Assembly (NCBI GenBank): GCA_027475525.1
Contig: JAMWFC010000058.1
Coordinates: 496,001 to 560,000, forward strand
Reading direction: 5' to 3'
DNA: 64,000 bases
Source: Macrolepiota albuminosa
Taxonomy: Eukaryota > Basidiomycota > Agaricomycetes > Agaricales > Agaricaceae
Shown: positions 1,473 to 29,492 of the stretch, in pieces
Numbering within the stretch: the stretch's first letter is position 1
How the letters are laid out: each line of letters starts with the position of its first letter
Translations under genes and position numbers: made by a program
The notes under the pieces: generated by a model
Database searches by the model: none
What the model saw: the letters and a program-made list of their open reading frames with translations, nothing else
Told to the model about the DNA's origin: nothing

Positions 1473-2427
1473 TGATGACGCCCAAAGTTTTGGTCAGCAA
1501 CAAATGTAGCAATTGTGTTACCGTACCAAGAGTGTGCGTTGGGCGCGCTATAAGTGATATGAGGAGTCCCGGGCAGGTCCCAGAGAACGCGTCTGTGAAA
1601 AAGGGTAAAAGTCGGTAACGAAGTCGGCAAGTGTCAAGCGCTAAGGTAAAGCGCCTAAGGAAATGCGGTAAGTGAAGACGGCAAGGGTGAGCGGCAAGAG
1701 CACGATAAGCTTAGCGAAGTTCTAAGCGTTGATAATGCCTGCCGTAGTTGCAAGGCGCGAGTATGTCGAGTGTTGGCGAACGTCTGCAACTGCCGATGAG
1801 TTTTGACGTTGCCGACCGTAGCGTAAATGAGCTCTTGAGCGTAAGGGAGAGACTGAAGTAAGGGGAGTAAACTGTGGTCTATTCGTCTCCTGCTGTATGT
1901 ACAAGTCGGTAAGTAATATATATACTACAAGGAGTTCACCGTCGCCAGTGGCTAATGACGCCAGAGTGCGGTAAACTGGAAAATTTCAAAGGGGTAGCTC
2001 CAACGGTTTCAGATCCCTACCGTCCATTCAAGAGCTTTAGCGACGCCAGGCGACAGATCGCGAAGCTAAACCATCACTCCATCACCCTTCTGTCTGTCAG
2101 AACACCTAAGCGACGTTGGGCGCCAAATCGAGACGGTAAGCGGTGTCAGACGCCAAGGTCAAACACCAAGCTGTCCGTCAGTTTTTGATAGATCATCAAG
2201 CTTCTCGCTAAGCGCTGTCGTCAGTGACTGATGCCATCTGTCAGTTGTCATTCTTGCTGCCGATCGGCGCTATCACTGATTGGATCTGCTTCTTGCCGTG
2301 CGCGGCCGTCAGAAATGGCTTAAAATGGGTAGAACGCGTGCGCTAAGTTCGGAACGAATGCGGCAAGGTTTCCGGAGCCGGTGCCGAGCCTGCCGTTGAT
2401 GCGCCTAACCTGTATAGGGTCCTATCA
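1473..2427 (-). repeat. LTR of B1 (3' LTR)
   Basis: 955 bases. Plus-strand termini are TGATGACG...CCTATCA, giving TG...CA ends on both strands. It contains the TATA-type run (taatatatatac) seen in the other copies and is dense in TTRSCG/CGSYAA hexamers, with 9 in 1561-1860 by hand count. Its close relatives are at 3741, 14105, 22805, 27354 and, inverted, 28543. Confidence 0.93.
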
Positions 2428-2436
2428 TCTCCCCCC
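2428..2436 (-). other. Polypurine tract of element B1
   Basis: Reads GGGGGGAGA on the minus strand directly against the LTR end (TGATAGG...). This is the expected position and composition for the plus-strand primer site of an LTR retrotransposon, and it fixes B1's orientation as minus. B2 has the same tract at 4692-4700. Confidence 0.85.
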
Positions 2437-2597
2437 GACTGAAAAATTGACTGTCCTCAGTCACCAAATAAGGCTACCGTTACCGTTTTTGTGACAAGTG
2501 GCCCGTGCGTTCTTGAGATTTGGTTTATAGTCCTGGCGCATAAGTGTGGACTTCGTTTCTCCTCCCCATCTTTACCTGGCGCTCAATTAAAATTTAT

Positions 2598-3740
2598 ATG
2601 TCTTTCCGCATTCCAACTCCGCCCCCCGTTCCCTCCCGTGAGGCTCAAGACGCTGCCTCTGCCTACATCGACAAGGCCAACAACTTCATTAGGCGCATCG
2701 AGGGTGTGGGCGCGGAGGCGCCTCCAAACTTGGTCGTTGCCGTGATGAAGTTGTTGGAGCGCTGGTACGAAGTTCGCGTCCTTGGCGTCGGCTGGGACAG
2801 AGAAATTGAAGTGCGGGAGTGGTGCCGGGCGCGGTACGTCGACAATCGTGGCGCCGACTGGTTAGCGCCATTTTCTCGTTTTGTAAGTTGTTTTAGTCCT
2901 TGCCGTGTCGCTAGCTGATTGGGTTCCTAGGCGCCTCCGCCTGTCCCAACGATCGAGGACGAGTTGGAGGACATTTTGTCTGGTGCCTTGCCGATGACGG
3001 TAAGCGCGCCAGCGGCAGAGTGAGTATTCCTAACCCATTTTTGACTTAGCTTTGGTCTGACTTGTCACCACACAGTAAACAAGAGGTGTTGGCGCCTTTG
3101 GCGCGCATGCAGGTTGCGGAGGAGGTCGCGGCAAGGCAGGAGGAGATATCTCAGGACGCCCGTGAGATCACCAGGGCGCTAGAGGAGAGAGAGAGAGTGG
3201 CCGCATTGGCGGCAGAGATGGAGGACGTTGCCGCTGGGAAGGCGCCAGTCGCCAGGGAACAGAGCAAGGTTTCGCGCGCCGGCAGTGCACAGAGCCCAGC
3301 ACTGCCGGCTAGCAGGAAGGGCTCCCCAGTAAAGCCGGGTAAGGCTTTGAAGAAAGTGAGTTTTTGCTCTTGCCGCTGCCGCGCCACGCTAACCACTGTT
3401 TCCAAGTCTCGCAAGGGAAAGGCTCCCCAGTACGCGGTAAGCGGTCTTTTGGAAGTCTGATTATTTTTATTTACCGTGTTTTGTCTAGGCGCCCACGCAG
3501 TCTAGCTTCGACGACAAAGAGCTGAAGGGACTGCTCTTGCCGCGTCGCGATGAGGCCGTCCTTGACGAGGGGCAGGAGGCCGGGGTGACGACAAAGAGCT
3601 GAAGGGACTGCTCTTGCCGCGTCGCGATGAGGCCGTCCTTGACGAGGGGCAGGAGGCCGGGGTCGTTATGGAGGAGATGAAGGGGAAGAAAACCGTTGCC
3701 TTGGCGACCCGGCAAGCGTTTAAGGAGGCTCGGGGGGCGG
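2598..3740 (+). CDS. B1 antisense accessory gene, exons 1-5 (cut by B2 insertion)
   Basis: First five exons of the gene that runs against gag-pol in element B: 2598-2882, 2931-3019, 3076-3355, 3407-3436 and 3489-3740. Introns are 48-56 bases with GT-AG ends. The exon sizes 285, 89 and 30 are identical to those of B2, and exon 3 is 36 bases longer, in frame. Exon 1 encodes an unrecognised domain of about 95 residues with a conserved core (LLERWYEVRVLGVGWDRE). Exon 3 is Ala/Glu-rich then Ser/Lys-rich. Exon 5 contains one 77-base duplication (second copy from 3587) that breaks its frame and is probably an assembly error. B2 inserted at the splice donor that ends exon 5. The gene resumes at 14766 with intron 5 and exon 6. 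Confidence 0.82.
3510..3663. repeat. 77-base direct duplication in exon 5 of the B1 antisense gene
   Basis: Two adjacent copies of one 77-base unit (3510-3586 and 3587-3663). B2 has a single copy at the corresponding place. It has the same length as 38 other duplications in the window and is best read as an unmerged assembly overlap. Confidence 0.9.
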
Positions 3741-4691
3741 TGATGACGCCCAAAGTTTGGTCAGTAACAAATGTAACAATTGTGTTACCGTACCAAGAGT
3801 GTGCGTTGGGCGCGCTATAAGTGATATGAGGAGTCCCGGGCAGGTCCCAGAGAACGCGTCTGTGAAAAAGGGTAAAAGTCGGTAACGGGGTCGGCAGGTG
3901 TAAAGCGCTAAGGGAAAGCGCCTAGGAAAGAGCGGTAAGCGAACACGGCAAAGGTAAGCGGCAAGAGCACGGTAAGCTTAGCGAAGTCTAAGCGTCGATA
4001 ATGCCTGCCGTAGTTGCAAGGCGCGAGTGTGTCGAGTGTTGGCGAGCGTCTGTAACTACCGATGAGTTCGACGTTGCCGACCGTAGCGTAAATGAGCTCT
4101 TGAGCGTAAGGGAGACTGAGGAAAGGGGAGTAAACTGTGGTCTATTCCTCTCCTGTCCGTATGTACAAGTCGGTAAGTAATATATATACTACAAGGAGTT
4201 CACCGTCGCCAGTGACCAACCATCGCCAAAGTGCGGTAAACTGGAAAATTTCATAGGGGTAGCTCCAACGGTTTCAGATCCCTACCGTCCATTCAAGACC
4301 CTTGGCGCCACCAGGCGGCAGATCGCGGTGCTAAATCATCAATCCATCACCCTTCTGTCTGTCAGAAGACCTAAGCGACGTTGGGCGCCAAATCGAGACG
4401 GTAAGCGGTGTCAGACGCCAAGGTCAAACGCCAAGCTGTCCGTCAGTTTTTGATAGATCATCAAGCTTCTCGCTAAGCGCTGTCATCAGTGACTGATGCC
4501 ATCTGTCAGTTGTCATTCCTGCTGCCGTTGGCGCTATCATTGATTGGATCTGCTTCTTGCCGTGTCCGGCCGTCAGAAATGGCTTAAAATAGGTAGAACA
4601 CGTGCGCTAAGTTCGGAACGAGTGCGGCAAGGTTTCCGGAGCCGGTGCCGAGCCTGCCGTTGATGCGCCTAACCTGTATAGGGTCCTATCA
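3741..4691 (-). repeat. LTR of B2 (3' LTR)
   Basis: 951 bases with the same termini and motif content as the 1473-2427 LTR. Substitutions relative to it are clustered, for example around 4295-4345. It is followed at once by the polypurine tract (GGGGGGAGA, minus strand). Confidence 0.93.
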
Positions 4692-4861
4692 TCTCCCCCC
4701 AACTGAAAAATTGACTGTCCTCAGTCACCAAATAAGGCTACCGTTACCGCTTTTGTGACAGGTGGTCCGTGCGTTCTTGAGATTTGGTTTATATTCCTGG
4801 CGCATGAGTTTGGACTTCGTTTCTTCTCCCCATCTTTTTCCTGGCGCTCAAAAATTAAAAT
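4692..4861 (+). promoter_or_regulatory. Leader between the B2 LTR and the antisense gene
   Basis: Holds the minus-strand polypurine tract (4692-4700), a short inverted repeat (TGACTG-TCCT-CAGTCA, about 4710-4727) and an AT-rich TATA-like stretch (tttatattcc, about 4788) some 70 bases before the ATG at 4862. The matching B1 leader (2428-2597) keeps the inverted repeat and most of the sequence. Placement suggests that the antisense gene has its own promoter here or uses the LTR; this is inference. Confidence 0.45.
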
Positions 4862-7102
4862 ATGTCCTTCCGTATTCCAACTCCGCCCCCTGTCCCATCT
4901 CAGGCTGCTCAAGAAGCCGCCTACGCGTACATCGCCAAGGCGAACCGTTTCATTCGCCATATCGAGGGCGTTGGCGCCGAGGCGTCTCCAAACTTGGTGG
5001 TTGGCGTGATGAAGTTGCTAGAGAGGTGGTATGAGGTGAGAGTCCTTGGCGTCGGGTGGGATCGCGAAATCGAGGTGCGGGAGTGGTGCCGCGCCCGGTA
5101 TGTCGACAATCGTGGCGCTGAGTGGTTGGCGCCTTTCTCCCGTTTCGTAAGTTGCTTTCTGTCTCCTGCCGTGTCGCTTAGCTGATTGTTACCTAGGCGC
5201 CTCCCCCCGTCCCCACCATTGAGGATGAGCTGGAGGATATTCTCTCTGGCGCGTTGCCGATGACCGTAAGCGCATCGGCAACCGAGTGAGTATCTCCTGA
5301 CCTTTCCTTTCCTAGCTCTGGACTGAACTATCCCCTCGTAGCAAGCAAGAAGTACTAGAGCCCCTTGCTCGATTGCAGATCGAGCAAGAGCAGGAGGAGG
5401 CTGCCGCTGCCGCTGCCGCACACTCCTTGGCGGTGGCAAGGGCCGAGCTCGCCAAGGAGCAAAAGAAGGAGTCTGTTGCCGAGGGTTCTAGCAAGGGGTC
5501 TCGCGCCGGCAGTGTTCAGAGCCCCACACTGCCGGCAGGCACACAGGGTTCACCTTCAAAGCCTGGCAAGGCTTTGAAGAAAAAGGTGAGTTTCCTGGTG
5601 TTGGCGTCTCTCCTTACCGACTGTGACTTTTGCTAGTCTCGCAAGGGGAAGGGCCCTCAATACGAGGTATGCCGTAGTAATTCTTTGCCGACTCTCTGCT
5701 GACTCTCTCCCAGCTCCCTAGCCAGACAACTTTCGACGATAAGGAGTTGAAGGGTTTGCTCTTGCCGCGCCGGGATGACGTCGTAATGGACGAGGGTATT
5801 GAGGGAGGAGTGGAGCTGCCGGAAATGAAGAACAAGCGCACAGCTTCCCTGGCGACGCGCCAGGAGTTCAAAGATTCGCGTGGAGCGGTAAGTTGTCTTA
5901 GCCTTTTTCGTATGACTTTTGTTCTCAAGCATGGGTAGTGTGACAAATGCTGGGCCGACAACGACCCCGAAAGTTGCTGGTTCCCCACTGGCGCCCAACC
6001 ATGTTACCGCTGCGGCACTCTCAAGCGTGCCTGTACGATCGACGGCGCCAAGAGTCGTGAACGTGGCGGCGCGCCTGATGTCTTTGTCGAGAAGACCTTT
6101 TCCCGGGCGGTTTTGGTCAAGCGGGCGAGGGAGTTTGTGGAGAGGGAACGTAGCGAGGTTGCCGCTGGGAGAGCGGCGAAGATCAGCAAGTCCTCCTTGG
6201 CGCTGCCGACGCGTCAAGGAGATGAATCGGAATCGGTCGGCAAGCGCGGCGCTGGCGAGCGCCAAGAAAAGCGCAAGGCCTCCTCCCCAAGCAAGGGCAA
6301 GGGTAAGGCCAAGCGCGTACGCATCGAGTCGCCCCCCTCCTCTCCAACTGCTGAGGACACGGAAATGAGGGAGCTTGGAGAGGCCCTTGCCGCCAGTCGC
6401 CTCCCTCCCGTTAGCGGTGAGGCTGGCCCCAGCCGCCTACTATCCCCCCTCGTCTTACCTGAAGACGCGCCACTCGATGTTTCGACTGCTGGCGCCCCAG
6501 GAGAGGAGGGCGACGTTGTAATGGAGGATCCCGCTGGCGCACAGGAGTTGGCCGGGGAGGAGGAGAAAAGGGAAGGGTCGCCAAGCCGCGAGGAGGAAGA
6601 GGGCGGCAATGAGGATGCTGAGGGAGAGGCAGAGGAAACTTTGCGGGAGGTTCCTGGCGAGTCCTCGGAATTGCCGATGGTGGAGCCTGCCGCCCCCTGG
6701 ATAAGCGAGGGCGACTTGGCGACGCAGCTCTGGACGAGCTCGAGTGGGTCTTCTTCGTGGACCCCCCAGCCTCAGCCAAGAGTCACTGGCGACTCGTACG
6801 AGTGGCTGGGGGAGGACTTGGTTTATCCTGTGGTGGCCCTGTACCCTCCTCAGGTTATCGAGCAGTTGGGAGCGCGGGCGGCAAGTATGCGGGCGGTATT
6901 GGGTCGCGAGCGCGAACGCGCTCGGCAACAAATCATGGCCTCGCGACTCCGGTATTCAAACTTGACCCGTAGCATGGAGACTCTCGAAGAATACCAAGCC
7001 GACTGCAACGAGGCGCTAGAGTGGCAAGCCCTCAACCAGGTACAGGTTGGCGATCTCCTGCCGTTCGACGACTCCTTGCCGCTCCCCGAGGATGAAGACT
7101 GA
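4862..7102 (+). CDS. B2 antisense accessory gene: six exons, unknown N-terminal domain plus Zn2Cys6-like cluster
   Basis: Exons are 4862-5146, 5197-5285, 5342-5585, 5637-5666, 5714-5887 and 5939-7102. They total 1986 bases, an exact 662 codons including the stop, with GT-AG introns. Residues 1-95 form an unrecognised conserved domain (motif LLERWYEVRVLGVGWDRE). Next come an acidic linker and an Ala/Glu-rich segment with likely coiled coil. At residues 275-306 six cysteines are spaced C-x2-C-x8-C-x8-C-x2-C-x6-C, close to the fungal Zn2Cys6 binuclear cluster (C-x2-C-x6-C-x5-12-C-x2-C-x6-8-C) but with x8 in the first loop. Basic patches (KGKGKAKR) and a long acidic region follow, then a conserved C-terminal part (TPQPQP...DLVYPV, then a charged helix). 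A nuclear DNA-binding protein is inferred. It runs antisense to pol and ends 431 bases before pol's end. It has no 77-base duplications and no frame breaks. Its function is unknown. Confidence 0.88.
5939..6034 (+). other. Zn2Cys6-like cysteine cluster in the B2 antisense protein
   Basis: Exon 6 opens with CDKC, then Cys after 8, Cys after 8, CYRC and Cys after 6 residues, followed by a basic stretch (SRER). B1 has the same arrangement at 14819-14914. Over the first 47 codons of exon 6, B1 and B2 differ at 27 bases but in only 2 amino acids (Ser/Gly and Thr/Ala), and all six cysteines are kept. Confidence 0.85.
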
Positions 7103-7535
7103 CGGACCTTAGAGTAGATAGGCCGTCGTGTATATATATTTTTGCCTTTGGTCGTTTTCGTATATATAAACCTTGCCGCCTCGTTTCTGAGTGGAAAGAT
7201 AAGTCTCATTTCTGAGTTAGCGCAACCGCAGAAAGCAAAGAAAGTAAAGCAAAGAAAAGGTAGGCGGCAAGTATTCTAAGGGTAAGTTTTAGCAAGAGGA
7301 GTAGTAGGTGAGGGACTTAGACAAATTTTAAGGAAAAGGGAAACGCTCAGTAGATCATCATAGCGAAAAACCCTTGGCGAGAGTTGCGCAAGGCGCTAAG
7401 CGTTGGCGACACGCTAGCGCTGCGACTTGACTATGTAAAGAAATGTCTGTTGAATATAGTATAGTAAGTCACGGCAAGAAAGATAAGTAAGGTATCTAAT
7501 AGAAAAATAAGAGCTTATCAGTATAGTCTTTTCTA
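7103..7535. other. Convergent intergenic region between the antisense gene and pol of B2
   Basis: AT-rich 3' flank with runs such as tatatatatttttg near 7131 and tatatataaa near 7160, probably the 3' UTRs of two converging transcripts. No ORF seen. B1 has the shorter equivalent at 16136-16494. Confidence 0.6.
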
Positions 7536-9351
7536 ATCATTTTCTTCTTCTTCAACTAAAGTCGGCAAGTCATCATCGTCCAATAATTCGGTTTCTTCAA
7601 GTTCTCTCAGCTTGGCGGTGTCGATATCTAGCGCTTCAAGCGGCAAGTCGATTCGTTCCCTGGCGAGATACGGTAGTAGGCGAAAAGCGGCAACAGGTCG
7701 ATGCAGTACTGAACCATCTAGTTCACAGAGCACGTAAGCGCCTCCACGGTTACGAGAGATAACTACCAAAGGTCCAAGATAGCGCGGGAACCATCTAGTT
7801 CACAGAGCACGTAAGCGCCTCCACGGTTACGAGAGATAACTACCAAAGGTCCAAGATAGCGCGGTCGCATTTTCTTGTTGTAGAGGTCTCGATTTTGGAG
7901 TTGCGCATGAGCACTAGCGCTCCTCTCGGGAAGTTGTAATCTTTGATGGTGGCGCTATGCTCGGTTTCGAATCGCAGGGCTGCTTGGCGACGGGCGCTAA
8001 AGACTACTTCATGAAGTCGCTCCAAATCTTCTTTCCTTCGCTGGAGATCAATGGCTCGTCTGGCGACAAGGTCGGTAGTCGCTAAGATACTATTAGGTGC
8101 TGGCTGAAGATAGGTCGCTTCTATAATGTCGGCAGGGAGTAAAGGATGGGTGCCAGTAGCCGCGTAGTAGGGAGAACAACCCATGCGCTTACGAATTCTA
8201 TAATGTCGGCAGGGAGTAAAGGATGGGTGCCAGTAGCCGCGTAGTAGGGAGAACAACCCATGCGCTTACGAATGTAACTCTTTCCGACCAAAATACTGAG
8301 TAGGTCGCTTCACTCCAACGAGACTCGTCGCCATCGACTGCCTTGAAGAGTGCTTGCCGAACGTCAAAGTGTGGTCTCTCTACCAGGCCATTGGCGCGCT
8401 TGTTGTAGCCAGATACTCGAATGTGGTGAATGTTGTATTTCTTGGCGAGGTATGTTAGCGCTTTGATAATGCGCGCTTGTTGTAGCCAGATACTCGAATG
8501 TGGTGAATGTTGTATTTCTTGGCGAGGTATGTTAGCGCTTTGATAATGGCGCACCATTATCCGTGACGATTTCTCTTAGCGCTCCCCAACGGCAAATGAC
8601 GTCCTCAAATAGCCACTTGGCGACCGCGTCGGTATTTTCTCTCTGAAGCATTCGAAATTCAGGCCAGTGGATTAGCGAGCAACGACCTTGAATGATGTAC
8701 TTGTAGCGACCAGATCTCTCTGAAGCATTCGAAATTCAGGCCAGTGGATTAGCGAGCAACGACCTTGAATGATGTACTTGTAGCGACCAGATTTGGCATA
8801 TGCATGGTGTCGACGTAGATTTTGCTGAAGAGGGGAGCTGGCGTTGCAACGGTTGGCGGTATGAGTACTTGGCGTGTCTGTTGAATTCGACGTAGATTTT
8901 GCTGAAGAGGGGAGCTGGCGTTGCAACGGTTGGCGGTATGAGTACTTGGCGTGTCTGTTGAATTTGGCAAGGTGGCAAGTCCTAATGTACCAGGCGATGT
9001 CGGCACTAGCGTGTGGCCACCAAAAGCGTTCTAGCAGAGAAGCTCGGGTAGCGTACAGACCTCTATGTCCTAGCTCGTCATGCATAGCGCGCAAGACTCG
9101 TAAGCGACCTTCTGGCTTGATGATCAGCTTGTGGGCGCCATCTCGATTTCGTCGCCAAAGTCGGTTGTCGGTAAAGAAGAAGTGGGTAGCATAGCGGATA
9201 AAGGTAGCGTATTGTTCGTCGGTAAGGTCTGGGGGTCGCTTAAGGTCTTGTAGCCATTGTTCAACGCATAGCGGATAAAGGTAGCGTATTGTTCGTCGGT
9301 AAGGTCTGGGGGTCGCTTAAGGTCTTGTAGCCATTGTTCAACTATTAACAA
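7536..9351 (-). pseudogene. pol: B2 integrase (zinc finger, core, GPY/F-type C-terminus), frame broken by 77-base duplications
   Basis: Would insert the cDNA copy into the genome. On the minus strand, the HHCC finger region starts near 9094 (MHDELGHRG) with its Cys half repeated by duplication. The core includes the segment SGYNKRANGLVERPH near 8400-8460, with the catalytic Glu in VER. The C-terminal module reads RYLGPLVVISRNRGGAYVL in B1 (16755-16690), as in GPY/F modules. The protein ends in an acidic tail with stop near 7533. Six 77-base duplications (first copies near 7711, 8124, 8396, 8641, 8811 and 9189) each shift the frame; single copies occur in the equivalent B1 sequence where it exists. 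Called pseudogene on the sequence as given, but it may be intact in reality. Confidence 0.75.
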
Positions 9352-10570
9352 GCGACTGTCTCTGCCTTTGCCTTGGCGGATCGGGGAACGGCATCGTAGG
9401 TCAGGTTTTTGCTGTCTTCTCTTAGCGACTGGGGTTCCTGTACGACTTTTACTGGAGGCAAGTCTTGTCCAAGGATGCTTGCCGTGTAGAATGTGAGGGG
9501 TGCGCTAAAGGTCTCGGGGCGGTAAGGGACGATGGGATGTATTGTCCAAGGATGCTTGCCGTGTAGAATGTGAGGGGTGCGCTAAAGGTCTCGGGGCGGT
9601 AAGGGACGATGGGATGTAAAAATATGCTGGTAGGCTGTTGCCGTCGTAGTAGGGGAATCGGTTGTTGTATGAGGTGCACGAAACCATGTAGTCGGTCGAT
9701 CCAGTCCTCGAAATCGCTATCAGCCTGTGGGTCCACTGCCGGGTCGCCAGGCTGCCGTGGTCGCCTAGAAAGTCCATCTGGTCCGTGGAAAGAGCTCTTG
9801 ACGTGTACCAACTCAAAGTGAAACATGAGGATGGCGACTACCCACCGGTTCATGCTAGCGGATGGCTGGATCTCTTGACGTGTACCAACTCAAAGTGAAA
9901 CATGAGGATAGCGACTACCCACCGATTCATGCTAGCGGATGGCTGGATATCGGGATTCTGCAGCATGCCAAGTGAAACATGAGGATGGCGACTACCCACC
10001 GGTTCATGCTAGCGGATGGCTGGATATCAGGATTCTGCAGCATGCCTTGATGTACCTAGCGTCGACCTCAACAATAAGGTTCCGCACGCCAATCAAATAC
10101 ATCTTTAGCGACCGGAAGGCTTTGAAGAGTCCATAGAGCTCTAGCTTAGGCTGGCTGTAGCGAGACTCTCTGTCGTTTAGCGTAATAGACCCAAAGCGGT
10201 TGTAGCGTCGCTGTTTCCGATTGTCGCTAAGGCATTGGCACAAGAAGTAGCCAACGGCAATGTACGAGGTGTCCACCGCCAAGATAACAGGGTCGGCAGA
10301 GGTATAATCGATGGGGACTAGGGGCTTGGCGTCCTGCAGAGCTTTTACTAAGTCGCGTTGGGCAGTGACCTGGTCTGGCCCAAATTCGAAGGGCTCGTTG
10401 GCGCGGGTGAGTCGGTTAAGGGCGTGTGCGCGATGGGCAAAGTTTTTGACGAATATCCTGAGAACGCCAACGGTGCCAAGAAAGGCGCGAACTTCAGATA
10501 AGTCGCGGCAAGGACCCCAGCGCTCCAAGAGTGCTAAGCGAGATTCGTCGGGAACAGAAAGGCGCGAACT
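9352..10570 (-). pseudogene. pol: B2 RNase H region of pol
   Basis: RNase H follows RT on the minus strand. Recognisable parts are the segment starting near 10310 (PVIL-AVDTSYIAVGYFLCQ), the motif ESRYSQPKLELYGLFKAFRS near 10165-10105, and a downstream strand (LIVEVDARYIK). The catalytic order D-E-D of RNase H is compatible with these. The linker towards integrase includes the usual FHFELVHVKSS...GPDGLSRRP motif near 9830-9760. Duplications near 9465, 9795 (three copies) and 10481 shift the frame. Confidence 0.72.
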
Positions 10571-14104: not shown

Positions 14105-14765
14105 TATGTCGAGTGTTGGCGAACGTCTGTAACTACCGATGAGTTTTGACGTTGCCGACCGTAGCGTAAATGAGCTCTTGAGCGTAAGGGAGACTGAGGA
14201 AGGGGAGAAACTGTGGTCTATTCGTCTCTGTCCGTATGTACAAGTCGGTAAGTAATATATATACTACAAGGAGTTCACCGTCGCCAGTGACCAACCATCG
14301 CCAAAGTGCGGTAAACTGGAAAATTTCATAGGGGTAGCTCCAACGGTTTCAGATCCCTACCGTCCATTCAAGACCCTTGGCGCCACCAGGCGGCAGATCG
14401 CGGTGCTAAATCATCAATCCATCACCCTTCTGTCTGTCAGAAGACCTAAGCGACGTTGGGCGCCAAATCGAGACGGTAAGCGGTGTCAGACGCCAAGGTC
14501 AAACGCCAAGCTGTCCGTCAGTTTTTGATAGATCATCAAGCTTCTCGCTAAGCGCTGTCATCAGTGACTGATGCCATCTGTCAGTTGTCATTCCTGCTGC
14601 CGTCGGCGCTATCATTGATTGGATCTGCTTCTTGCCGTGCCGGCCGTCAGAAATGGCTTAAAATAGGTAGAACGCGTGCGCTAAGTTCGGAACGAGTGCG
14701 GCAAGGTTTCCGGAGCCGGTGCCGAGCCTGCCGTTGATGCGCCTAACCTGTATAGGGTCCTATCA
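14105..14765 (-). repeat. Partial LTR of B2 (truncated 5' LTR)
   Basis: Matches the portion of the other LTRs from the tatgtcgagtg segment (about 4027 in the 3741-4691 copy) to the end CCTATCA. The left end is fused to gag at TTGGGG/TATGTCG. It is followed by the GCGG target duplication. The missing part corresponds to about 290 bases of LTR. Confidence 0.88.
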
Positions 14766-20705: not shown

Positions 20706-22760
20706 TGTATCCTTTAAGGGTTGTTTAGGCTGCTTAACTTCAACCCCATCAAAAACCTGATTCTTAAGCGAATCCAACTCCTGTTGGAGCTTGGCGATAC
20801 GCTCTTCCCGCGAAAAAGTAGGGTGGTCGCCAACGCTGTCGAAATGTAGGACCTCGTGAATCATCTGCTGTTGGGTCGCCTGTTCCGCGAAAAAGTAGGG
20901 TGGTCGCCAACGCTGTCGAAATGTAGGACCTCGTGAATCATCTGCTGTTGGGTCGCCTGTTCGGGTCGGGGTTGGCGTTGCCAGATAGCGTGCCGGTAAC
21001 GATTTGTCCTGGGTTGCGCCTATGCCATTCATCTACCCGCTCCTGGAAGGACTTCTTGTCTGGGTAGTTGGGGATGGTGGCGCCAGTGGTGAGGACTATC
21101 TTGCCGTCGATAGCCCTTCGAATTCTACCTTGGCGAACGTAATTCTCGAGGGTAGCGCAGCGTCCTCTAGTCATGGTATGGCCAATTTCCCCACAGAAGT
21201 GGCAAGGGCCAGGCGCGGGTACGTTAGCGGGTCGGTTAGCCGTGAGGTTGGTGGTTGGCCAATTTCCCCACAGAAGTGGCAAGGGCCAGGCGCGGGTACG
21301 TTAGCGGGTCGGTTAGCCGTGAGGTTGGTGGTGATCATGGTTTCGATACGTGTCATGGCGGAAGCGACAGCGGCGGTAATGGCAGCATTGAGCTCCTCTT
21401 TCTTAACGAAGTCGGTAGTGGGAGGCGGGATGGGAATGATACCGTTAGTTCGCTCAGGGCAGCATTGAGCTCCTCTTTCTTAACGAAGTCGGTAGTGGGA
21501 GGCGGGATGGGAATGATACCGTTAGTTCGCTCAGGGGGTGGGCTCGTCCTAGCGCGTTGTATACCAACGCCAGTGTCCGTTCCCTTGAGAACCCATTTAC
21601 CGGCTTCAAAGACGTCGGCAACGTTATAGGGCTCGTCAGGGTGATGGGCCTGATGAACTATCTCTAGGCGACGGGCAATACGAGTCCACAGTGAAGTCGG
21701 GATGCCCTGCTGAAAAGGGTGATGGGCCTGATGAACTATCTCTAGGCGACGGCAATACGAGTCCACAGTGAAGTCGGGATGCCCTGCTGAAACAGGCGAC
21801 GCTCCTCGTTAATATAGAGCTTGCCGTTCTGCAGAAGCCACCTAGCGACTTTCTGGAACTCGCGGTAATATGTAGAGAATGCGCCAAGCGACGATGTGCC
21901 ACTGTCGAAAGATTCCTGTACTAGTTTCTGTAACTCGTTTACCGTGTATCGGGTAGCCTCCTCGGCGCCAGGGTACAGCTGGATCACTGCTGTCTTCCAG
22001 TCCTCATACGAAGCGCCTTGGGCTGGAACGGGTGGGGCGGCAGGGACAAAGGCGGCAAACTCGGTCAAACCTGTCCACGTCTCTGCCGTGTCATACGACA
22101 CGTATCTTGCCGCGCGGCAGGGACAAAGGCGGCAAACTCGGTCAAACCTGTCCACGTCTCTGCCGTGTCATACGACACGTATCTTGCCGCGTACTCCTTC
22201 ATCTGCGTGTGGTCGGTAATGTTACAATCCTAAACAAATACTCTAATTCCTTGAAATACTGGGAGAGCTCCCGTGGCTTGGTCTCGTCCCATTTCGGTGC
22301 CGAGAAGTGGTTGCGTGGCGGCATGCGCTGGACTTGTTGTTCCATAGCGACTGGTTGGTCTCGTCCCATTTCGGTGCCGAGAAGTGGTTGCGTGGCGGCA
22401 TGCGCTGGACTTGTTGTTCCATAGCGACTGGTTGGCGAGTTCGGTTAGCGGTTGTGGGGAAGGAGTTCTAGAGGTTGGCGACGGGGTGAGCGAAATGACG
22501 AGTTGTGAAAGCGGTGTTAACGGAGTGATAGGGGTAACTGATTGCGGTAAGGTAAAGGGCGACGCTAAGGGGTCGTCGGTACTATAATCGAGGGAATGCG
22601 GGAAGAGATCAGGAAAAGCGTCTACAGTGGCGTTCTGTAGTTCCTGGGCGAGAGAGAGACCCGGTAAGGCACCAGGTGGTTGTGGAGTTGATGGGTGGGA
22701 AGGAGCAATGCCTTCTGCCGACTGCTCTAGCAGGCGGCGCCTACGCTGGAGACGGGTTTC
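20706..22760 (-). pseudogene. gag: B1 gag
   Basis: Minus strand. The N-terminal part near 22420-22200 contains a segment typical of fungal Ty3/gypsy Gag (PKWDETKPRELSQYFKELE), followed by the capsid-like helical region (22155-21640) and a zinc knuckle CHFCGEIGHTMTRGRC near 21215-21170. Its spacing is C-x2-C-x4-H-x6-C, slightly longer than canonical. A helix with heptad-like Leu (AKLQQELDSLK) follows. The start codon is not certain; gag probably begins between 22420 and 22760. Duplications near 20808, 21180, 21382, 21638, 22037 and 22278 break the frame. Confidence 0.75.
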
Positions 22761-22780
22761 TGGCGGAATTCTGCCCTAGA

Positions 22781-22801
22781 GATCCCTCGCGGTGGGCTCC
22801 A
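22781..22801 (-). other. Primer binding site of element B1
   Basis: Reads TGGAGCCCACCGCGAGG... on the minus strand, starting 3 bases inside the 5' LTR edge at 22805. TGG at the LTR-proximal end pairs with the CCA tail of a tRNA. I could not assign the tRNA species; the plus strand here (ending GGTGGGCTCCA) would be the tRNA 3' end. Position, TGG start and GC content support the call and the minus orientation of the element. Confidence 0.75.
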
Positions 22802-22804
22802 ATT

Positions 22805-23833
22805 TGATGACGCCCAAAGTTTGGTCAGCAACAAATGTAGCAATTGTGTTACCGTACCAAGAGTGTGCGTTGGGCGCGCTATAAGTGATATGAGGAGTCC
22901 CGGGCAGGTCCCAGAGAACGCGTCTGTGAAAAAGGGTAAAAGTCGGTAACGCGCGCTATAAGTGATATGAGGAGTCCCGGGCAGGTCCCAGAGAACGCGT
23001 CTGTGAAAAAGGGTAAAAGTCGGTAACGGTCGGCAAGTGTCAAGCGCTAAGGTAAAGCGCCTAAGGAAATGCGGTAAGTGAAGACGGCAAGGGTGAGCGG
23101 CAAGAGCACGATAAGCTTAGCGAAGTTCTAAGCGTTGATAATGCCTGCCGTAGTTGCAAGGCGCGAGTATGTCGAGTGTTGGCGAACGTCTGCAACTGCC
23201 GATGAGTTTTGACGTTGCCGACCGTAGCGTAAATGAGCTCTTGAGCGTAAGGGAGAGACTGAAGTAAGGGGAGTAAACTGTGGTCTATTCGTCTCCTGCT
23301 GTATGTACAAGTCGGTAAGTAATATATATACTACAAGGAGTTCACCGTTGCCAGTGGCTAATGACGCCAGAGTGCGGTAAACTGGAAAATTTCAAAGGGG
23401 TAGCTCCAACGGTTTCAGATCCCTACCGTCCATTCAAGAGCTTTAGCGACGCCAGGCGACAGATCGCGAAGCTAAACCATCACTCCATCACCCTTCTGTC
23501 TGTCAGAACACCTAAGCGACGTTGGGCGCCAAATCGAGACGGTAAGCGGTGTCAGACGCCAAGGTCAAACGCCAAGCTGTCCGTCAGTTTTTGATAGATC
23601 ATCAAGCTTCTCGCTAAGCGCTGTCGTCAGTGACTGATGCCATCTGTCAGTTGTCATTCTTGCTGCCGATCGGCGCTATCACTGATTGGATCTGCTTCTT
23701 GCCGTGCGCGGCCGTCAGAAATGGCTTAAAATGGGTAGAACGCGTGCGCTAAGTTCGGAACGAATGCGGCAAGGTTTCCGGAGCCGGTGCCGAGCCTGCC
23801 GTTGATGCGCCTAACCTGTATAGGGTCCTATCA
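22805..23833 (-). repeat. LTR of B1 (5' LTR), with internal 77-base duplication
   Basis: 1029 bases; removing the 77-base repeat (22875 onward) gives 952, like the other copies. It is nearly identical to the 1473-2427 LTR over most of its length, as expected for two LTRs of one insertion. Confidence 0.93.
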
Positions 23834-26379
23834 ACGCAAAGCGGAAGTTGACGCCTGCCTTTGCGGAAGGAGCGAAGGTGAACTTTTTAGGCAGGGGAGA
23901 GGCAGCAAAGGGGAAGAGTGGTGGAGCTTCTATCACGGTGGCAGCGGTGTTTGAGGGTTCTGAGTCGGATGAGTCCAGTAGCGATGGGGGGAGCGAGTAC
24001 GTCATTCCACGACACATCACTTATCCCTGTTTCGTGTCAGGGCCTTCTATGGCCCCTGTCCTGGTTTCAAATGCCCTTATTGACACCGGCTCTCCTCCAG
24101 CGCTGATTTCCTCAACGTTAGTGAAGACCTTGGGTCTACGAACGCGTAATTTGGAGAGGCCGTTAGTAGTGTCAGGGGTGTTTTTGTCGCAAGGGTCCGA
24201 GTCGCAAAGAGTGCTTTCGCAATACGTCAAACTTGTAATTATATCTCCGTGTTCTCAATGGCAATCGCGCCCCCAAGTGTTCATTATATGTCCAAAACTT
24301 CACACGGATCTCATTCTTGGACTCGATTTCTTGAAGCGCAATAAATTGATCATCGACCCTGAGGCTGGCTTACTGACGGATAAATTGACGGGGTTCGATT
24401 TGTTGCATTCCTTGGGCACCGACGACGTTCCAAAAGGAGCAAAAGAAAAGCCTCAGGTTCAGCGGAAGAAAGTGAAGACTCGAGATAAGAATGAGAAGGC
24501 ATGGATAAGGCAGGGGCAGAAAGAGATGAAAGAACATCGAAAACTCGTACATTTTGAGTTGAACGCGCTGTTTATGAAGGAAGCCGACAAATTTGCGAGG
24601 TTAGAGGAGCACACCGTCTCGGGAGAACCTCGGCTGTTAGGAATGGTTCGTGCTCGGATCGAACAGTTAGCGTGGAAGGAAAAGTTGAAGGAGATGGATG
24701 CATCAATGAAGCGACGCTTTAAAAATCTATTCCCGGCTGGTATTCCGCATGCAGATGAACTCCCAGACAGTGTATACCACCGAATTCAGGTCAAGCCTTT
24801 GGCAAAGATTACGGTAGCACGTTCTTATTCATGCCCACGGAAATATCGTGATGGATGGAAGACCTTAATCGATCAGCATGTCGCGGCGGGACGAATTAGG
24901 CCGTCATCGTCACCTTATGCAAGTCCGTCCTTTGTGATCCCTAAAGCGGATCCTACGGTTCTCCCTCGATGGGTAAACGATTACCGACGTTTAAACGCTA
25001 GCACGGTGCCTGATCACTTTCCACTGCCACGAATTGATGATATTTTGGCAGATTGCACGAAGCCAGGGATGAAGGTGTGGGGGAAGATTGATCTAACGGA
25101 CGCATTTTTTCAAACGTGGATGCATCCCGATGACATCAAATACACAGCGACATTGACTCCGTTTGGATTGTGGGAATGGGTCGTCATGCCCATGGGCCTT
25201 CGAAACGCCCCTGCCACACAACAGCGTCGTATCACGCTCGCATTGCATAAATACATCGGCAAGATCTGCCACGTCTACCTCGATGATATTATCATTTGGT
25301 CGACGTTGATTGAGGAACATGAGAAGAATGTCTCATTGGTGTTACAGGCCTTGAAGGAGGCGAGTTTGTTTTGTTCGATGAAAAAGAGTCAATTGTTTTG
25401 CACCGAAATTGATTTTCTGGGCCACCATATTTCGGAGAGGGGCATCGAGGCTGACCTTTCGAAGGTGGAAAAAATCTTAAACTGGCCAGTTCCCAGGAAA
25501 GCAAAGCACGTTAGGCAGTTCCTAGGGCTCGTGCGTTACATCGCAGCGTTTCTTCCTGCACTAGCTGAGCATACCTCGGTACTCACACCACTAACACGAA
25601 AAGAGTTCAATGGCAACTTCCCACCCTGGACGCGTGCTCATCAGGTCGCTTTCGATGGCATTAAGGCTCTTATTGTCGGACGTGACTGTCTTACAACGAT
25701 CGATCACAAGACGGCTGGCAAGAACAAGATTTTTGTGACATGCAACGCGAGTAAGAGGAGGACAGGAGCGGTTCTGTCGTTTGGAGAGACATGGGAGACG
25801 GCACGTCCTGTTGCTTTTGATTCACGGCAATTAACATCAGCGGAGAAAAATTATCCAACGCATGAGCACGAGTTATTAGCTATTGTTCGTGCTCTACAGA
25901 AGTGGCGGACAGATTTGCTTGGCTCGACGTTTTCGATTTTCACCGATCACAAAACGTTGAAAAATTTTGAAACTCAACGGGACTTGTCAAAGAGACAAGC
26001 ACGATGGATGGAATACATGTCCCAGTACGATTACGACATGAACTATATAAGAGGCGAGGAGAATACGGTCGCCAACGCACTGTCGAGGATGCCGGAAACG
26101 GACAATTTGATAGTAGGACAGGTTTTGATGTTGAGGGGCGAGGAAACGACCTTAGAGGAGGTTAAGAAGGGTTATGAAGAGGATCCGTATACGAGGCGAT
26201 TGCTTGACGATGCTAAGGCTGGATTACTCACGAGCGGTGTGGAGTTACGAGATGGGTTGCTCTTTGTGGGCAATCGATTGGTTATCCCCAGATATAAGCA
26301 GTTGAGGGAGAGTCTTTTCCGAATCGCACACGACGAACTCGGACATTTCGGGGCGGATAAAACATATGTGTCTCTGTGA
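23834..26379 (+). CDS. pol: Element A pol: protease, reverse transcriptase, RNase H, start of integrase
   Basis: Continues the gag frame of 346-1472. The aspartic protease active site is ALIDTGSPPALIS near 24076. RT follows, with VNDYRRLNAS near 24975, the palm TLTPFGLWEWVVMPMG near 25150, and the active site YLDDIII near 25275. RNase H shows VTCNASKRRTGAVLSFG near 25735, where the first catalytic Asp expected in T(C)DAS is Asn. Later come RQLTSAEKNYPTHEHELLAI and FTDHKTLKNF. The tether (YDMNYIRGEENTVANALSR) is followed by the start of the integrase zinc finger (AHDELGHFG). TGA at 26377-26379 interrupts it. Base composition and motif content are unlike element B, with only one TTRSCG-type hexamer in 24841-25790. 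The element is probably inactive. Confidence 0.9.
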
Positions 26380-27353
26380 TACTCTTACTACTGGCCGAAC
26401 ATGCGGCGGGACCTCATTAATGGGTATATTCCTTCCTGTGTCGACTGCCAACGTAACAAGAGTCAGACTACGAAACCGAGAGGTCCTTTACACCCCTTGC
26501 CTATCCCAGAACATCGTTTTGGTTCCGTGACGTTGGACTTTGTGGGCCCTTTGCCGATGGACAAAGGTTTCGACCAGTTCTGTTCGATGACCTGTCGTGC
26601 GGGTGCTGACTTGCAAATTTCGCCAACGAAAACAGATCAGACAGGAGAGGATTTTGCTCACATCTTTTTTCGGGATTGGTATTGTGAGAACGGGTTGCCC
26701 TACGAGATTATCACAGATAGGGACAGTCTGTTTACGTCCGCATTTTGGCGAGCCTTGATGAAGCTTACGGGAGTGAAGCACAAGATGTCCACTGCCTTTC
26801 ATCCCCAGACGGACGGTGCTTCGGAGCGTTCTAATAAGACGATCGTTCAGTGCATCCGTTACCATGTCGACCGCATCCAGACAGGGTGGGTAAAGGCCCT
26901 ACCTCGAATCCGATTCGGAATCATGAACACGGTAAATGCTTCCACAGGATTTTCTCCTTTTCAGCTTAAATCAGGATTTTCTCCCCGTGTCCTTTTGCCC
27001 TTATACCCGCCACCGCCCACTGATACTCCAGCTGAAGACCTCGCTCTCCGTGTATTACAAGAAATCGAATCGAATTACTTGGAAGCCATGGACAACTTAA
27101 TTACGTCTAAGATAAGTCAGGCGCACCACGCTAATTCACACCGTGCACCGGAAATCGAGTACAAGGTCGGGGATAAGGTCATGTTGTCCACGGCCAATCG
27201 TCGTCGCAAATACGTTCAGAAGAAGGATGGCCGAGTGGCGAAGTTTATGCCAAGGCAGGATGGTCCTTTTATCGTTCTCGAGGCCTTCCCTGACTCGTCG
27301 GAGTATGTATTGGACTTACCGTCATCGATGAGGATCCTTAATCGTTTCCACGC
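26380..27353 (+). pseudogene. pol: Element A integrase after an in-frame stop
   Basis: Same frame as the preceding part. It starts with YSYYWPNMRRD, so the TGA just before replaces a codon in the zinc-finger linker. The Cys pair is CVDC. Catalytic positions are seen in LDFVGP, ITDRDS and ASERSNKT (Asp, Asp, Glu). The C-terminal GPF-type module is DGPFIVLEAFPDSSEYVLDLP. TGA from CGA would be one C-to-T change at a CpG, consistent with decay of a methylated repeat. The frame is then cut by the solo LTR at 27354 and continues at 28309. Confidence 0.85.
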
Positions 27354-28308
27354 TGATGACGCCCAAAGTTTTGGTCAGCAACAAATGTAGCAATTGTGTT
27401 ACCGTACCAAGAGTGTGCGTTGGGCGCGCTATAAGTGATATGAGGAGTCCCGGGCAGGTCCCAGAGAACGCGTCTGTGAAAAAGGGTAAAAGTCGGTAAC
27501 GAAGTCGGCAAGTGTCAAGCGCTAAGGTAAAGCGCCTAAGGAAATGCGGTAAGTGAAGACGGCAAGGGTGAGCGGCAAGAGCACGATAAGCTTAGCGAAG
27601 TTCTAAGCGTTGATAATGCCTGCCGTAGTTGCAAGGCGCGAGTATGTCGAGTGTTGGCGAACGTCTGCAACTGCCGATGAGTTTTGACGTTGCCGACCGT
27701 AGCGTAAATGAGCTCTTGAGCGTAAGGGAGAGACTGAAGTAAGGGGAGTAAACTGTGGTCTATTCGTCTCCTGGTCCATTGTACAAGTCGGTAAGTACTT
27801 TTATACTACAAAGAGTTCGCCGTCGCCAGTGACCAACCATCGCCAAAGTGCGGTAAACTGGAAAATTTCATAGGGGTAGCTCCAACGGTTTCCGATCCCT
27901 ACCGTCCTTGGAGGACCCTTGGCGCCACCAGGCGGCAGATCGCGGTGCTAAACCATCAATCCATCACCCTTCTGTCTGTCAGAGCACCTAAGCGACGTTT
28001 GGCGCCAAATCGAGACGGTAAGCGGTGTCAGACGCCAAGGTCAAACGCCAAGCTGTCCGTCAGTTTTTGATAGATCATCAAACTTCTCGCTAAGCGCTGT
28101 CATCAGTGACTGATGCCATCTGTCAGTTGTCATTCCTGCTGCCGTCGGCGCTATCATTGATTGGATCTGCTTCTTGCCGTGCGCGGCCGTCGGGAATGGC
28201 TTAAAATGGGTAGAACGCGTGCGCTAAGTTCGGAACGAGTGCGGCAAGGTTTCCGGAGCCGGTGCCGAGCCTGCCGTTGATGCGCCTAACCTGTATAGGG
28301 TCCTATCA
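27354..28308 (-). repeat. Solo LTR of element B in the integrase-chromodomain linker of element A
   Basis: 955 bases with the same termini as the B1 LTR. The target duplication ACGC is at 27350-27353 and 28309-28312. No internal B sequence is present, as after LTR-LTR recombination. A's frame reads through when it is ignored. Confidence 0.93.
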
Positions 28309-28542
28309 ACGCGTCTCTCCTTTCACCATTTCACCCGAACGATGACGACCTTTTCCCATCTCGTCACTTGGAAATGCCTGGCCCCGTGGTTACAGAAGAA
28401 GGCCAGGAAGAACATTTCATTGATAAAATCTTGGATGAACGAAAGCGTGGAAGAGGCGTCCAGTACCTCGTTCGATGGCGAGAATACGGTCCAGATCATG
28501 ACGAGTGGAAGAGTGGTAGGGAGATGGAGGACACGGTCGCGC
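28309..28542 (+). CDS. pol: Element A chromodomain (first part)
   Basis: Continues the integrase frame: SLLSPFHPNDDDLFPSRHLE, then a chromodomain at about 28389-28540 with EEHFIDKILDERKRGRGVQ and YLVRWREYGPDHDEW. The aromatic residues Phe, Tyr and Trp are present at the usual cage positions. Chromodomains at integrase C-termini define chromoviruses and guide integration to heterochromatin; that is family knowledge. The inverted solo LTR cuts the domain's C-terminal helix. Confidence 0.88.
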
Positions 28543-29492
28543 TGATAGGACCCTATACAGGTTAGGCGCATCAACGGCAGGCTCGGCACCGGCTCCGGAA
28601 ACCTTGCCGCACTCGTTCCGAACTTAGCGCACGCGTTCTACCCATTTTAAGCCATTCCCGACGGCCGTGCACGGCAAGAAGCAGATCCGATCAATGATAG
28701 CGCCGACGGCAGCAAGAATGACAACTGACAGATGGCATCAGTCACTGACGACAGCGCTTAGCGAGAAGCTTGATGATCTATCAAAAACTGACGGACAGCT
28801 TGGCGTTTGACCTTGGCGTCTGACACCGCTTACCGTCTCGATTTGGCGCCCAACGTCGCTTAGGTGTTCTGACAGACAGAAGGGTGATGGATTGATGGTT
28901 TAGTACCGCGATCTGCCGCCTGGTGGCGCCAAGGGTCCTCAAAGGACGGTAGGGATCTGAAACCATTGGAGCTACCCCTATGAAATTTTCCAGTTTACCG
29001 CACTTTGGCGATGGTTGGTCACTGGCGACGGTGAACTCCTTGTAGTATATATATTACTTACCGACTTGTACATACATCATCAGAACAATAGACCAGAGTT
29101 TCCCCCACTTACTTCAGTCTCACTTACGCTCAAGAGCTCATTTACGCTACGGTCGGCAACGTCAAAACTCATCGGCAGTTGCAGACGCTCGCCAACACTC
29201 GACATACTCGCGCCTTGCAACTACGGCAGGCATTATCGACGCTTAGACTTCGCTAAGCATATCGTGCTCTTGCCGCTCACATTGCCGTGTTCACTTACCG
29301 CATTTTCCTTAGGCGCTTTACCTTAGCGCTTGACACTTGCCGACCCCGTTACCGACTTTCCTCATTTTCATAGGCGCGTTCTCTGGGACCTGCCCGGGAC
29401 TCCTCACATCACTTATAGCGCGCCCAACGCAAACTCTTGGTACGGTAACACTTTTGTTACATTCGTTTCTGACCAAACTTTGGGCGTCATCA
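28543..29492 (+). repeat. Inverted solo LTR of element B inside element A's chromodomain
   Basis: 950 bases, oriented TGATAGG...CATCA on the plus strand, opposite to the other copies. The target duplication GCGC is at 28539-28542 and 29493-29496. A TATA-like run (tagtatatatattac) is at about 29043. It contains 22 TTRSCG/CGSYAA hexamers by hand count. Confidence 0.93.

Follow-up and report, generated by a model that had tools for sequence, protein, structure and literature searches.

Element B, by its sequence a Ty3 LTR retrotransposon of about 10-12 kb in the fungus Macrolepiota albuminosa, carries the hexamer CGSYAA, or its complement TTRSCG, across its LTRs, its genes and their introns, about once per 68 bp, counting either strand. 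The words are dense, specific in sequence, independent of codon choice and CpG, and slow to evolve. We propose that KCGSYAAG, with the core CGSYAA, is a dispersed binding site that is kept by selection and most likely read by the element's own six-cysteine protein, a reading to which we give a probability of roughly one half (0.52). The pattern suggests that element B labels itself at the DNA level, probably for recognition by one of its own gene products.

Element B in the window and in the genome

The window analysed here is a stretch of 64,000 nucleotides (assembly GCA_027475525.1, contig JAMWFC010000058.1, positions 496,001 to 560,000, forward strand), of which a preliminary description had assigned the interval 1473-29492 to element B. 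The interval is mostly B, with copies that are nested or adjacent, but it also includes pieces of element A at ~24010-27349 and 28313-28537, the first border being approximate and lying past the LTR end at 23837 (Table 1). LTR copies of B flank gag, protease, reverse transcriptase (RT) and integrase, and these domains lie on the minus strand. Specifically, the first gag-pol gives Pfam matches to Integrase_H2C2 (2.5e-13) and to RVT_1 (9.2e-05, below its cut-off), with reading frames interrupted by 77-bp artefact duplications, while the second gives a match to gag-asp_proteas (1.4e-08). Element A pol contains RVT_1, RT_RNaseH and integrase domains in Pfam. A 5-bp target duplication was looked for around the inverted LTR, and GCGC was found on either side, the junctions being read by eye only.

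The 36 tandem duplications of period 77 in the window are an assembly artefact, and their second copies were masked before density counts. The motif is not a component of the 77-bp repeats, as its density persists with the second copies masked, and the only other tandem arrays within B are a few short ones. The truncated accessory gene was recognized by self-BLAST, in which 1470-3035 matches 3738-5302 at 89.7% identity.

Table 1. Parts of element B and of element A in the window, with CGSYAA/TTRSCG sites
Feature	Position	Strand	Sites and details
B LTR copy	1469-2427	+	20 sites, 20.9 per kb; self-BLAST 95.7% to 27350-28308
Truncated accessory gene, 5' part, ATG ~2598	2428-3736	+	19 sites/1,232 unmasked bp
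B LTR copy	3737-4691	+	23 sites, 24.1 per kb; self-BLAST
Accessory gene, antisense to gag-pol	4862-7102	+	last exon 5939-7102
First B element gag-pol	7103-14103	-	RT 10571-11386, integrase H2C2 8672-9316; 92 sites/5,687 unmasked bp
Partial B LTR	14104-14768	+	14 sites, 21.1 per kb; self-BLAST
Second accessory gene, last exon, 438 aa open frame	14819-16135	+	upstream exons absent from this copy
Second B element gag-pol	16136-22804	-	protease 19455-20153; 88 sites/5,577 unmasked bp
B LTR copy containing one 77-bp artefact duplication	22805-23837	+	21 sites/955 unmasked bp
Element A pol, internal control without enrichment	24010-27349	+	11 sites, 3.3 per kb
B LTR copy sitting within element A	27350-28312	+	23 sites, 23.9 per kb; self-BLAST
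Inverted B LTR copy	28538-29496	-	22 sites, 22.9 per kb; self-BLAST

Element B is repeated in the genome. Among the 45 LTR matches listed, drawn from 1,606 first-look candidates, 40 are near full length at 95-100% identity. Paired LTR matches elsewhere lie mostly 9.2-11.1 kb apart, and at least five pairs enclose the accessory gene. This gene is present at no fewer than 96 places, and 30 of its 97 listed matches contain in-frame stops.

The motif is dense in every part of element B

Every part of B contains 13-24 sites per kb, with 20.9-24.1 in LTRs, 15.8-16.2 in gag/pol and 13.3-16.1 in the accessory gene, whereas the controls contain 2.0-3.3 (the two longer pieces of element A) and 1.4 (host). 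The whole interval 1473-29492 holds 432 CGSYAA/TTRSCG, and the element A pieces inside it hold 11 in 3,340 bp and 0 in 225 bp, that is, no enrichment. Our recount reproduces the 22 hexamers first counted in the LTR at 28543-29492, the 9 in 1561-1860 and the 2 in host DNA at 49481-50430, and gives 2 instead of 1 in element A pol at 24841-25790. The observation that the motif crosses coding and non-coding parts on both strands holds for LTRs, accessory gene, gag and pol, and so does the extension to CGSYAAG, with G at +6 in 52% of 370 sites. In addition, G or T occupies position -1 in 72% of these sites. All four words share the 5' G or T and the 3' G, as expected from one binding specificity.

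Site counts per 250 bp are more even than Poisson (variance-to-mean ratio 0.62, 46 bins), and no helical or codon periodicity was found at the periods examined (3 and 9.5-12). We attribute the value at period 147 to a low-frequency effect of the method. Among direct repeats, spacings of 13 and 30 bp are prominent (14 and 13 pairs) and are not independent, since the two elements share positions.

Among the retroelements compared, the density is almost confined to B. Specifically, 49 of 50 other Ty3/Copia loci, obtained from two Pfam searches in a set that lies outside the closest non-B relatives of B pol, contain the motif at 0-5.4 per kb. Conversely, all 31 stretches read with the accessory gene (L001, the window's own copy, to L030, and L081) contain 12.9-16.9 sites per kb, and L040 is one further motif-dense piece beyond them. 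Since gene and motif belong to a single element family, their co-occurrence amounts to one observation. A search for distant paralogues with protein P0007 yielded one locus that was read, L081, a near relative of B in which the motif is present.

Composition and codon usage do not account for the excess

With CpG and GC controlled by an order-2 Markov model of the element, 377 sites are seen against 60.7 expected, an enrichment of 6.2-fold that exceeds the 3-fold limit set in the preliminary description. The four motif words rank top among B 6-mers by z under this model, and the motif in B is 12.5-fold over host. One-base neighbours at positions 1-5 reach 0.4-1.9 of the order-2 expectation, and CGSYAG (2.9-fold) is the sole clearly enriched neighbour. 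The comparison with host is less sharp, with CGSYAG at 10.9-fold, CGSYTA at 7.2-fold and CGSYAC at 4.1-fold, and GCGCTA, which overlaps the motif, heads the 6-mer list ranked against host.

Codon usage is likewise insufficient, as had been surmised, for synonymous-codon shuffles of the B coding pieces expect 19.3 sites where 75 are seen. Five of the seven pieces exceed every one of 1000 shuffles each; of the other two, the integrase piece equals the shuffle maximum (2 against a mean of 0.4) and the gag2 piece has no excess (2 against 2.2). None of seven element A and host pieces exceeds its own synonymous shuffles. Together, the shuffles and the order-2 model rule out codon usage, CpG and GC as the cause.

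The motif words are maintained by selection

In the non-coding LTRs, 48 of 3,440 motif bases have changed (0.014), against 1,158 of 22,258 bases outside the motif (0.052); for LTR CpG outside motifs, 116 of 2,857 have changed. The motif change rate is below that of all random sets (1000 for the LTR and 100 each for upstream, ORF and pol) and below that of all 68 slid sets in the LTR and the three internal regions, the internal test covering 20 stretches other than the window's first accessory region. Furthermore, CGSYAA is the most conserved of 60 CG-containing permuted patterns, and among all 360 permuted patterns it ranks second by class and third by identity, 10 of the 31 stretches having been dropped as more than 97% alike to another. 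Changes at the Y position are C to T or T to C in 79% of cases and keep the class, whereas only 191 of 572 changes at the S position keep it. The control pattern CGYSAA, which shares CGCCAA with the motif, changes almost as slowly. In another Ty3 family, CGSYAA words are unconserved (0.165 against a slid mean of 0.159; L040 and 8 near-duplicates were dropped from 30 Ty3 loci).

Slow change, specificity and codon independence form the pattern expected of a binding site under selection. The binding-site shape proposed in the preliminary description thus gains support from the sharp specificity, the presence on both strands and the slow change in coding and non-coding parts.

A gene antisense to gag-pol with a conserved six-cysteine cluster

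The accessory gene lies on the plus strand, opposite to gag-pol on the minus strand, and adjoins the LTR between pol and the 3' LTR. Its exon-intron structure was inferred by eye from GT..AG sites. The exon 5939-7102 starts with C-X2-C-X8-C-X8-C-X2-C-X6-C, and in the second copy (14819-16132) the cysteine cluster is followed by a basic, NLS-like region and an acidic region; the protein is probably nuclear. The cluster is strongly constrained, with pN of 0.019, pS of 0.508 and pN/pS of 0.04 among 23 distinct copies, 9 of 32 having been dropped as identical. Of the 68 related proteins listed, all of them named as Termitomyces, 17 show the complete six-cysteine cluster with identical spacing and fall into two types (B-like and P0009-like); the other 51, among them many fragments and database gene models, lack the full pattern.

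Zn2Cys6 proteins follow the rule C-X2-C-X6-C-X5-12-C-X2-C-X6-8-C. In the window copies and the 17 relatives, the second and third cysteines are separated by 8 residues, where the rule has 6. No Zn_clus match was found in Pfam with alignments of 23 and 7 members, and PDB profile searches returned no zinc-cluster chain; two PDB matches, noelin (E 2.4) and the chain 'M678F nab' (E 0.25), look like chance. AlphaFold2 gives a pLDDT of 25-39 in the blocks holding the cysteine cluster (two models), values too low for fold comparison. The two window exons and the 23 alignment members, taken without the upstream exons, give no significant Pfam match, TRP28 (PF04195) included.

Discussion

We suggest that the reader of the motif is most likely the antisense-encoded six-cysteine protein of B. 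Such a protein would bind single sites of the kind bound by zinc-cluster regulators, and could coat the element so that activators are recruited or silencing is held off. This coating would favour transcription of B and keep the element active. Because the words lie everywhere, fragments and solo LTRs would remain recognizable as self.

It is possible, though we think it rather unlikely, that the sites are instead read by a host factor, a zinc-cluster regulator or chromatin protein exploited for transcription or nuclear position, and that the accessory protein has another role. Fungal zinc-cluster regulators with such sites are reported (PMC8928461, PMC5559640), and the Pfam and PDB profile searches found no zinc-cluster homology for the accessory protein. 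However, the density in coding sequence goes beyond what a promoter needs, and among the loci read the dense motif occurs only in gene-bearing stretches and L040.

Action at the RNA level, in which the words would direct packaging, export, splicing or decay of sense and antisense transcripts, is very improbable. CGGTAAG does include a 5' splice-donor-like word, and the LTRs favour one orientation, each of the four near-full-length plus-orientation copies having 14-16 CGSYAA and 6-7 TTRSCG. However, each part of B holds both orientations (the two gag/pol spans together have 105 CGSYAA and 75 TTRSCG), and enrichment is similar for the three words that lack GTAAG (4.9-7.5-fold) and for the one that contains it (7.7-fold). 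We give slightly less credence still to integration targets that guide new B copies into old ones, for which the nested or adjacent copies in the window speak; the small number of LTR junctions inspected by eye have no CGSYAA at the insertion point, and two or more insertions entered element A, where the words are scarce. A compositional signature, whether of codon usage, CpG retention or a former host's background after horizontal transfer, agrees with the higher GC content of B relative to host and is nonetheless next to excluded, as the excess outlasts both controls, one-base neighbours at positions 1-4 are unenriched over the order-2 model, the sites are constrained in non-coding LTRs, and dense words are missing from 29 of the 30 other Ty3 loci rich in GC.

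As a tentative and, in our view, doubtful generalization of self-reading by B, fungal Ty3 elements might each write a family-specific self-recognition word over their full length, coding sequence included, to be read by their own protein. Such an element-wide barcode would act as self-activation at the chromatin level, with CGSYAAG for B and possibly TCCSGGA for another Ty3 family in the same genome, where this palindrome is conserved and exceeds synonymous shuffles (8 of 30 loci chosen for shuffling). If antisense accessory genes do encode self-acting DNA-binding proteins, fungal retrotransposons would have arrived at self-recognition along the whole element separately from the VANDALs of plants, and even coding sequence can be shaped to carry it. 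Saturation of a whole element with a motif can be detected by sequence analysis alone, which opens other families to screening.

Antisense accessory genes of plant LTR retrotransposons have been known since the 1990s, with their function described as unsettled (PMC7264820, PMC11963269). The antisense gene of B comes with a candidate target, a single sharp motif that is selected and element-wide, and the idea that such genes encode self-acting DNA-binding proteins becomes testable. In the literature searched, which covered few subscription papers, we found neither a motif nor a gene of this kind described for fungi.

The sites resemble those of Zn2Cys6 regulators, among which XlnR binds CGGNTAAW as a monomer (PMC8928461) and Pho7 has the site TCG(G/C) (PMC5559640). 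The B protein likewise has six cysteines arranged C-X2-C ... C-X2-C-X6-C, but its middle spacing is 8-8 instead of 6 and 5-12, and it lacks a Pfam or PDB profile match. Drosophila gypsy uses clustered sites for the host protein Su(Hw) as an insulator. B shares with gypsy the Ty3-like type and the many repeats of a candidate site for one protein; unlike the single cluster there, read by a host protein, the B sites span the whole element.

The aORF-3R genes of the plant elements Retand, Grande and RIRE2 run antisense between pol and the 3' LTR and may code for a DNA-binding protein, with a function described as unknown, and for Retand the proteins are reported to carry TRP28 (PF04195), together with family-specific tandem repeats (PMC11963269, PMC7264820). 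The antisense gene of B has the same location, but its predicted protein has a six-cysteine cluster in place of TRP28, and its element has dispersed hexamers instead of tandem repeats.

VANDALs are DNA transposons, whereas B is a fungal LTR retrotransposon. In Arabidopsis, the VANDAL-encoded protein VANC binds a short motif that has built up within the element encoding it, in non-coding tandem repeats, and removes silencing marks from that element (PMC5735166, PMC10398659). Element B, known from its sequence alone, similarly pairs an accessory gene with an element-specific motif, but here the motif lies outside tandem arrays and fills the coding sequence too.

CGSYAA is a dense and selected word of element B

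The Ty3 LTR retrotransposon of the window, element B, carries a dense, sharp and selected DNA word, CGSYAA (TTRSCG on the other strand). Motif counts per 500 bp rise from 0–2 outside to 5–13 at the B border, and fall back to 0–4 in element A, a second retroelement. With artefact copies masked, there are 20.9–24.1 sites per kb in the B LTRs, 15.8–16.2 in gag/pol and 13.3–16.1 in the accessory gene, which lies antisense to gag-pol. Host DNA has 1.4 sites per kb, and element A 2.0–3.3 in two longer pieces and 0 in a 225-bp piece. The counts in the preliminary description were reproduced for 28543–29492 (22), 1561–1860 (9) and 49481–50430 (2), while its element A control contains 2 sites rather than 1. 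Four near-full-length plus-orientation LTRs show an orientation bias, with 14–16 CGSYAA versus 6–7 TTRSCG.

The words CGGCAA, CGGTAA, CGCCAA and CGCTAA occupy ranks 1–4 among 6-mers in B by z-score under an order-2 Markov model of B itself; when words are ranked against host instead, GCGCTA, which overlaps the motif, comes first. The family occurs 377 times, compared with 60.7 expected from the order-2 model and 30.2 scaled from host. Among 16 one-base variants, the 10 changed at positions 1–4 occur at 0.42–1.30 of the order-2 expectation, while changes at position 5 or the last position give 1.9 (CGSYTA), 2.9 (CGSYAG) and 1.6 (CGSYAC); against host some run higher (7.2, 10.9 and 4.1, respectively). 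The CpG-decay products TGSYAA and CASYAA are at 0.72 and 0.64 of the order-2 expectation. Each of the four words is preferentially preceded by G or T and followed by G. In pieces of 3.2 kb, a ranking in which palindromes score inflated, the top word belongs to the motif family in 6/6 B pieces (z 7.8–11.0); non-B loci have other top words, mostly at z 4–6 and at most 8.7, except for the Ty3 locus L040, whose top word is motif-like.

Codon usage alone does not explain the excess, as the preliminary description had argued. Synonymous-codon shuffling, which preserves protein and codon usage (1000 shuffles per piece), predicts 19.3 sites (summed means) in seven B coding pieces, in which 75 are observed. 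Five of the seven exceed all shuffles, the IN piece only ties the maximum (2 vs 0.4), and the gag2 piece shows no excess (2 vs 2.2). The motif occupies several reading phases in B coding sequence. Element A and host pieces have 20 sites against 16.1 expected, with 0/7 above shuffles.

The preliminary description raised whether the excess is specific to B, and this is borne out among the loci read. All 31 stretches with the accessory gene, including the window's own copy (L001), have 12.9–16.9 sites per kb. For comparison, 30 Ty3 and 20 Copia loci were counted, and 49 of these 50 have 0–5.4. The exception, L040, has 26 sites within its first 1.5 kb and none beyond, perhaps an adjoining B piece. 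Across 100 Mb in 129 contigs, CGSYAAG occurs 68,709 times versus 32,699 for the reversed control, an excess that would correspond to about 4 Mb of B-like DNA at B's density.

Motif sites change slowly. Twenty-one stretches of about 4.3 kb were taken to represent the 31, whose median identity is about 87%; in these 21, motif bases change at 0.03–0.08 and flanks at 0.118. Changes at the Y position are C-T exchanges in 79% of cases, and changes at the S position keep the class in only 191/572. Among 17 control patterns, one, CGYSAA, changes almost as slowly, and it has the word CGCCAA in common with the motif. Ranked by class conservation, CGSYAA comes top among the 60 permuted patterns that contain CG and second when all 360 are compared. 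Both in the LTRs and in each internal region compared (three in all), motif positions change more slowly than any of the control sets, whether random, random with CG, or slid (displaced-position). Specifically, LTR motifs change at 0.0139, against means of 0.0469 for random and 0.0367 for CG-containing sets; since LTRs are non-coding, protein constraint does not explain this. CpG loss affects 11.8% of pair cells within motifs versus 24.7% outside. Individual sites turn over: between the first accessory region of the window and L001, 22 are shared, 26 lost and 11 gapped, with high density in both.

Element B encodes a conserved cysteine protein

Protease, RT and integrase matches all lie on the minus strand, placing B in minus orientation. 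Elsewhere, LTR matches mostly form pairs whose start points lie 9.2–11.1 kb apart, with two further pairs at 6.7 and 13.5 kb, and the accessory gene lies between the LTRs in at least five pairs, so B is about 10–12 kb long.

Features of element B and tandem duplications in the window
Feature	Position	Strand	Remarks
Accessory gene	ATG about 4862	+	adjoins LTR
Last exon of accessory gene		+	starts with CDKCWADNDPESCWFPTGAQPCYRCGTLKRAC; a basic stretch of KGKGKAKR type and an acidic region follow; composition measured on second copy
Period-77 duplications (examples)	8119–8273, 17280–17433, 62578–62731		

The accessory protein is a conserved, element-encoded cysteine protein. Its gene has at least 97 matches at at least 96 places in the genome, with in-frame stops in 30 of the 97 listed. 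The cluster C-X2-C-X8-C-X8-C-X2-C-X6-C has pS 0.508 and pN 0.019 (36 codons, 23 distinct copies). In two protein searches, each scoring about 8,000 candidates, the relatives among the matches listed were from Termitomyces strains only (8/8 and 67/67; 68 distinct together), which makes Termitomyces or a near relative the probable source of the DNA. Of these 68, 17 show the complete cysteine pattern; fragments or gene models account for many of the rest.

Identity is 95–100% for the best LTR matches, and 30 accessory exons (L001–L030) have a median pairwise difference of about 28% at third codon positions; the gene looks older or reshuffled relative to the LTRs, the two sets being different copies. 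Upstream exons amounting to about 1.2 kb are missing from the second accessory gene at 14768–14819, where they would separate the LTR from the cysteine exon; either a true deletion or an assembly collapse would account for this.

Probable assembly artefacts and CpG depletion

Between 3510 and 63606 the window contains 36 tandem duplications, each perfect or almost so, and all have period 77; when periods of 15 to 499 were tested alike, only 77 passed. In total, 31 fall in B's two gag-pol spans. A k of 77 is a common assembler setting, and the duplications are very probably untrimmed overlaps of joined contigs from a k=77 assembly graph, which break reading frames; it is thus probable that many frame breaks in B have no biological origin.

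In most bins of 500 bp, B has about as much CpG as expected, or more. Seven Copia loci (L063, L065, L066, L067, L069, L071 and L079) are strongly depleted, with 22–33 CpG in 3.4–3.7 kb, as methylation decay would leave. Two repeat copies at 29908–31056, 79–81% alike and 850 bp apart, lie under bins 30001–31500, with CpG at 0.1–0.28 of expectation.

A possible second word in another Ty3 group

The 30 Ty3 loci fetched by PF17921 (L031–L060) contain 251 TCCSGGA sites over 95 kb, versus 0 in 32.5 kb of host; the enriched group comprises all but L040. CCSGGA/TCCSGG exceeds synonymous shuffles 1.9–3.1 fold in 8/8 loci tested of the 30 (0/500 shuffles reach each), and CGSYAA does so weakly in one of the eight (L043, 4/500). 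TCCSGGA sites change slower than 66/66 slid sets. CGSYAA is not conserved in this group (44/68 slid sets lower), the core CCSGG shows no clear slowness by itself (6/70), and a different word, ACGACA, changes almost as slowly as TCCSGGA (1/68). TCCSGGA is possibly a second family-specific word, hinting that such words are family-specific; the case is weaker than for CGSYAA, as it covers pol and surroundings only.

Discussion

We propose that the accessory protein is probably nuclear, that it binds the motif either as a monomer or in a loose array, and that its acidic region would activate or open chromatin. The main rival is that a host protein reads the motif. Two results do not fit an element-encoded reader of the zinc-cluster type: zinc-cluster homology went undetected in Pfam and PDB profile searches, and structure prediction gave no usable model. 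One cysteine interval also falls outside the zinc-cluster spacing rule. On the side of the element-encoded reader, some zinc-cluster proteins recognise single sites similar to B's motif, namely XlnR, which binds CGGNTAAW (PMC8928461), and Pho7, with the site TCG(G/C)... (PMC5559640).

Among the matches listed by searches of the open literature, we found none describing a fungal retroelement that carries such a motif or such a gene, and as far as these searches reach, an LTR element saturated with a motif through its coding sequence is new. Element-encoded motif recognition is already known from VANDALs. VANC proteins are element-encoded and act against silencing via an accumulated motif (PMC5735166), and by analogy they may serve as a model for an element B protein that reads its own accumulated motif.
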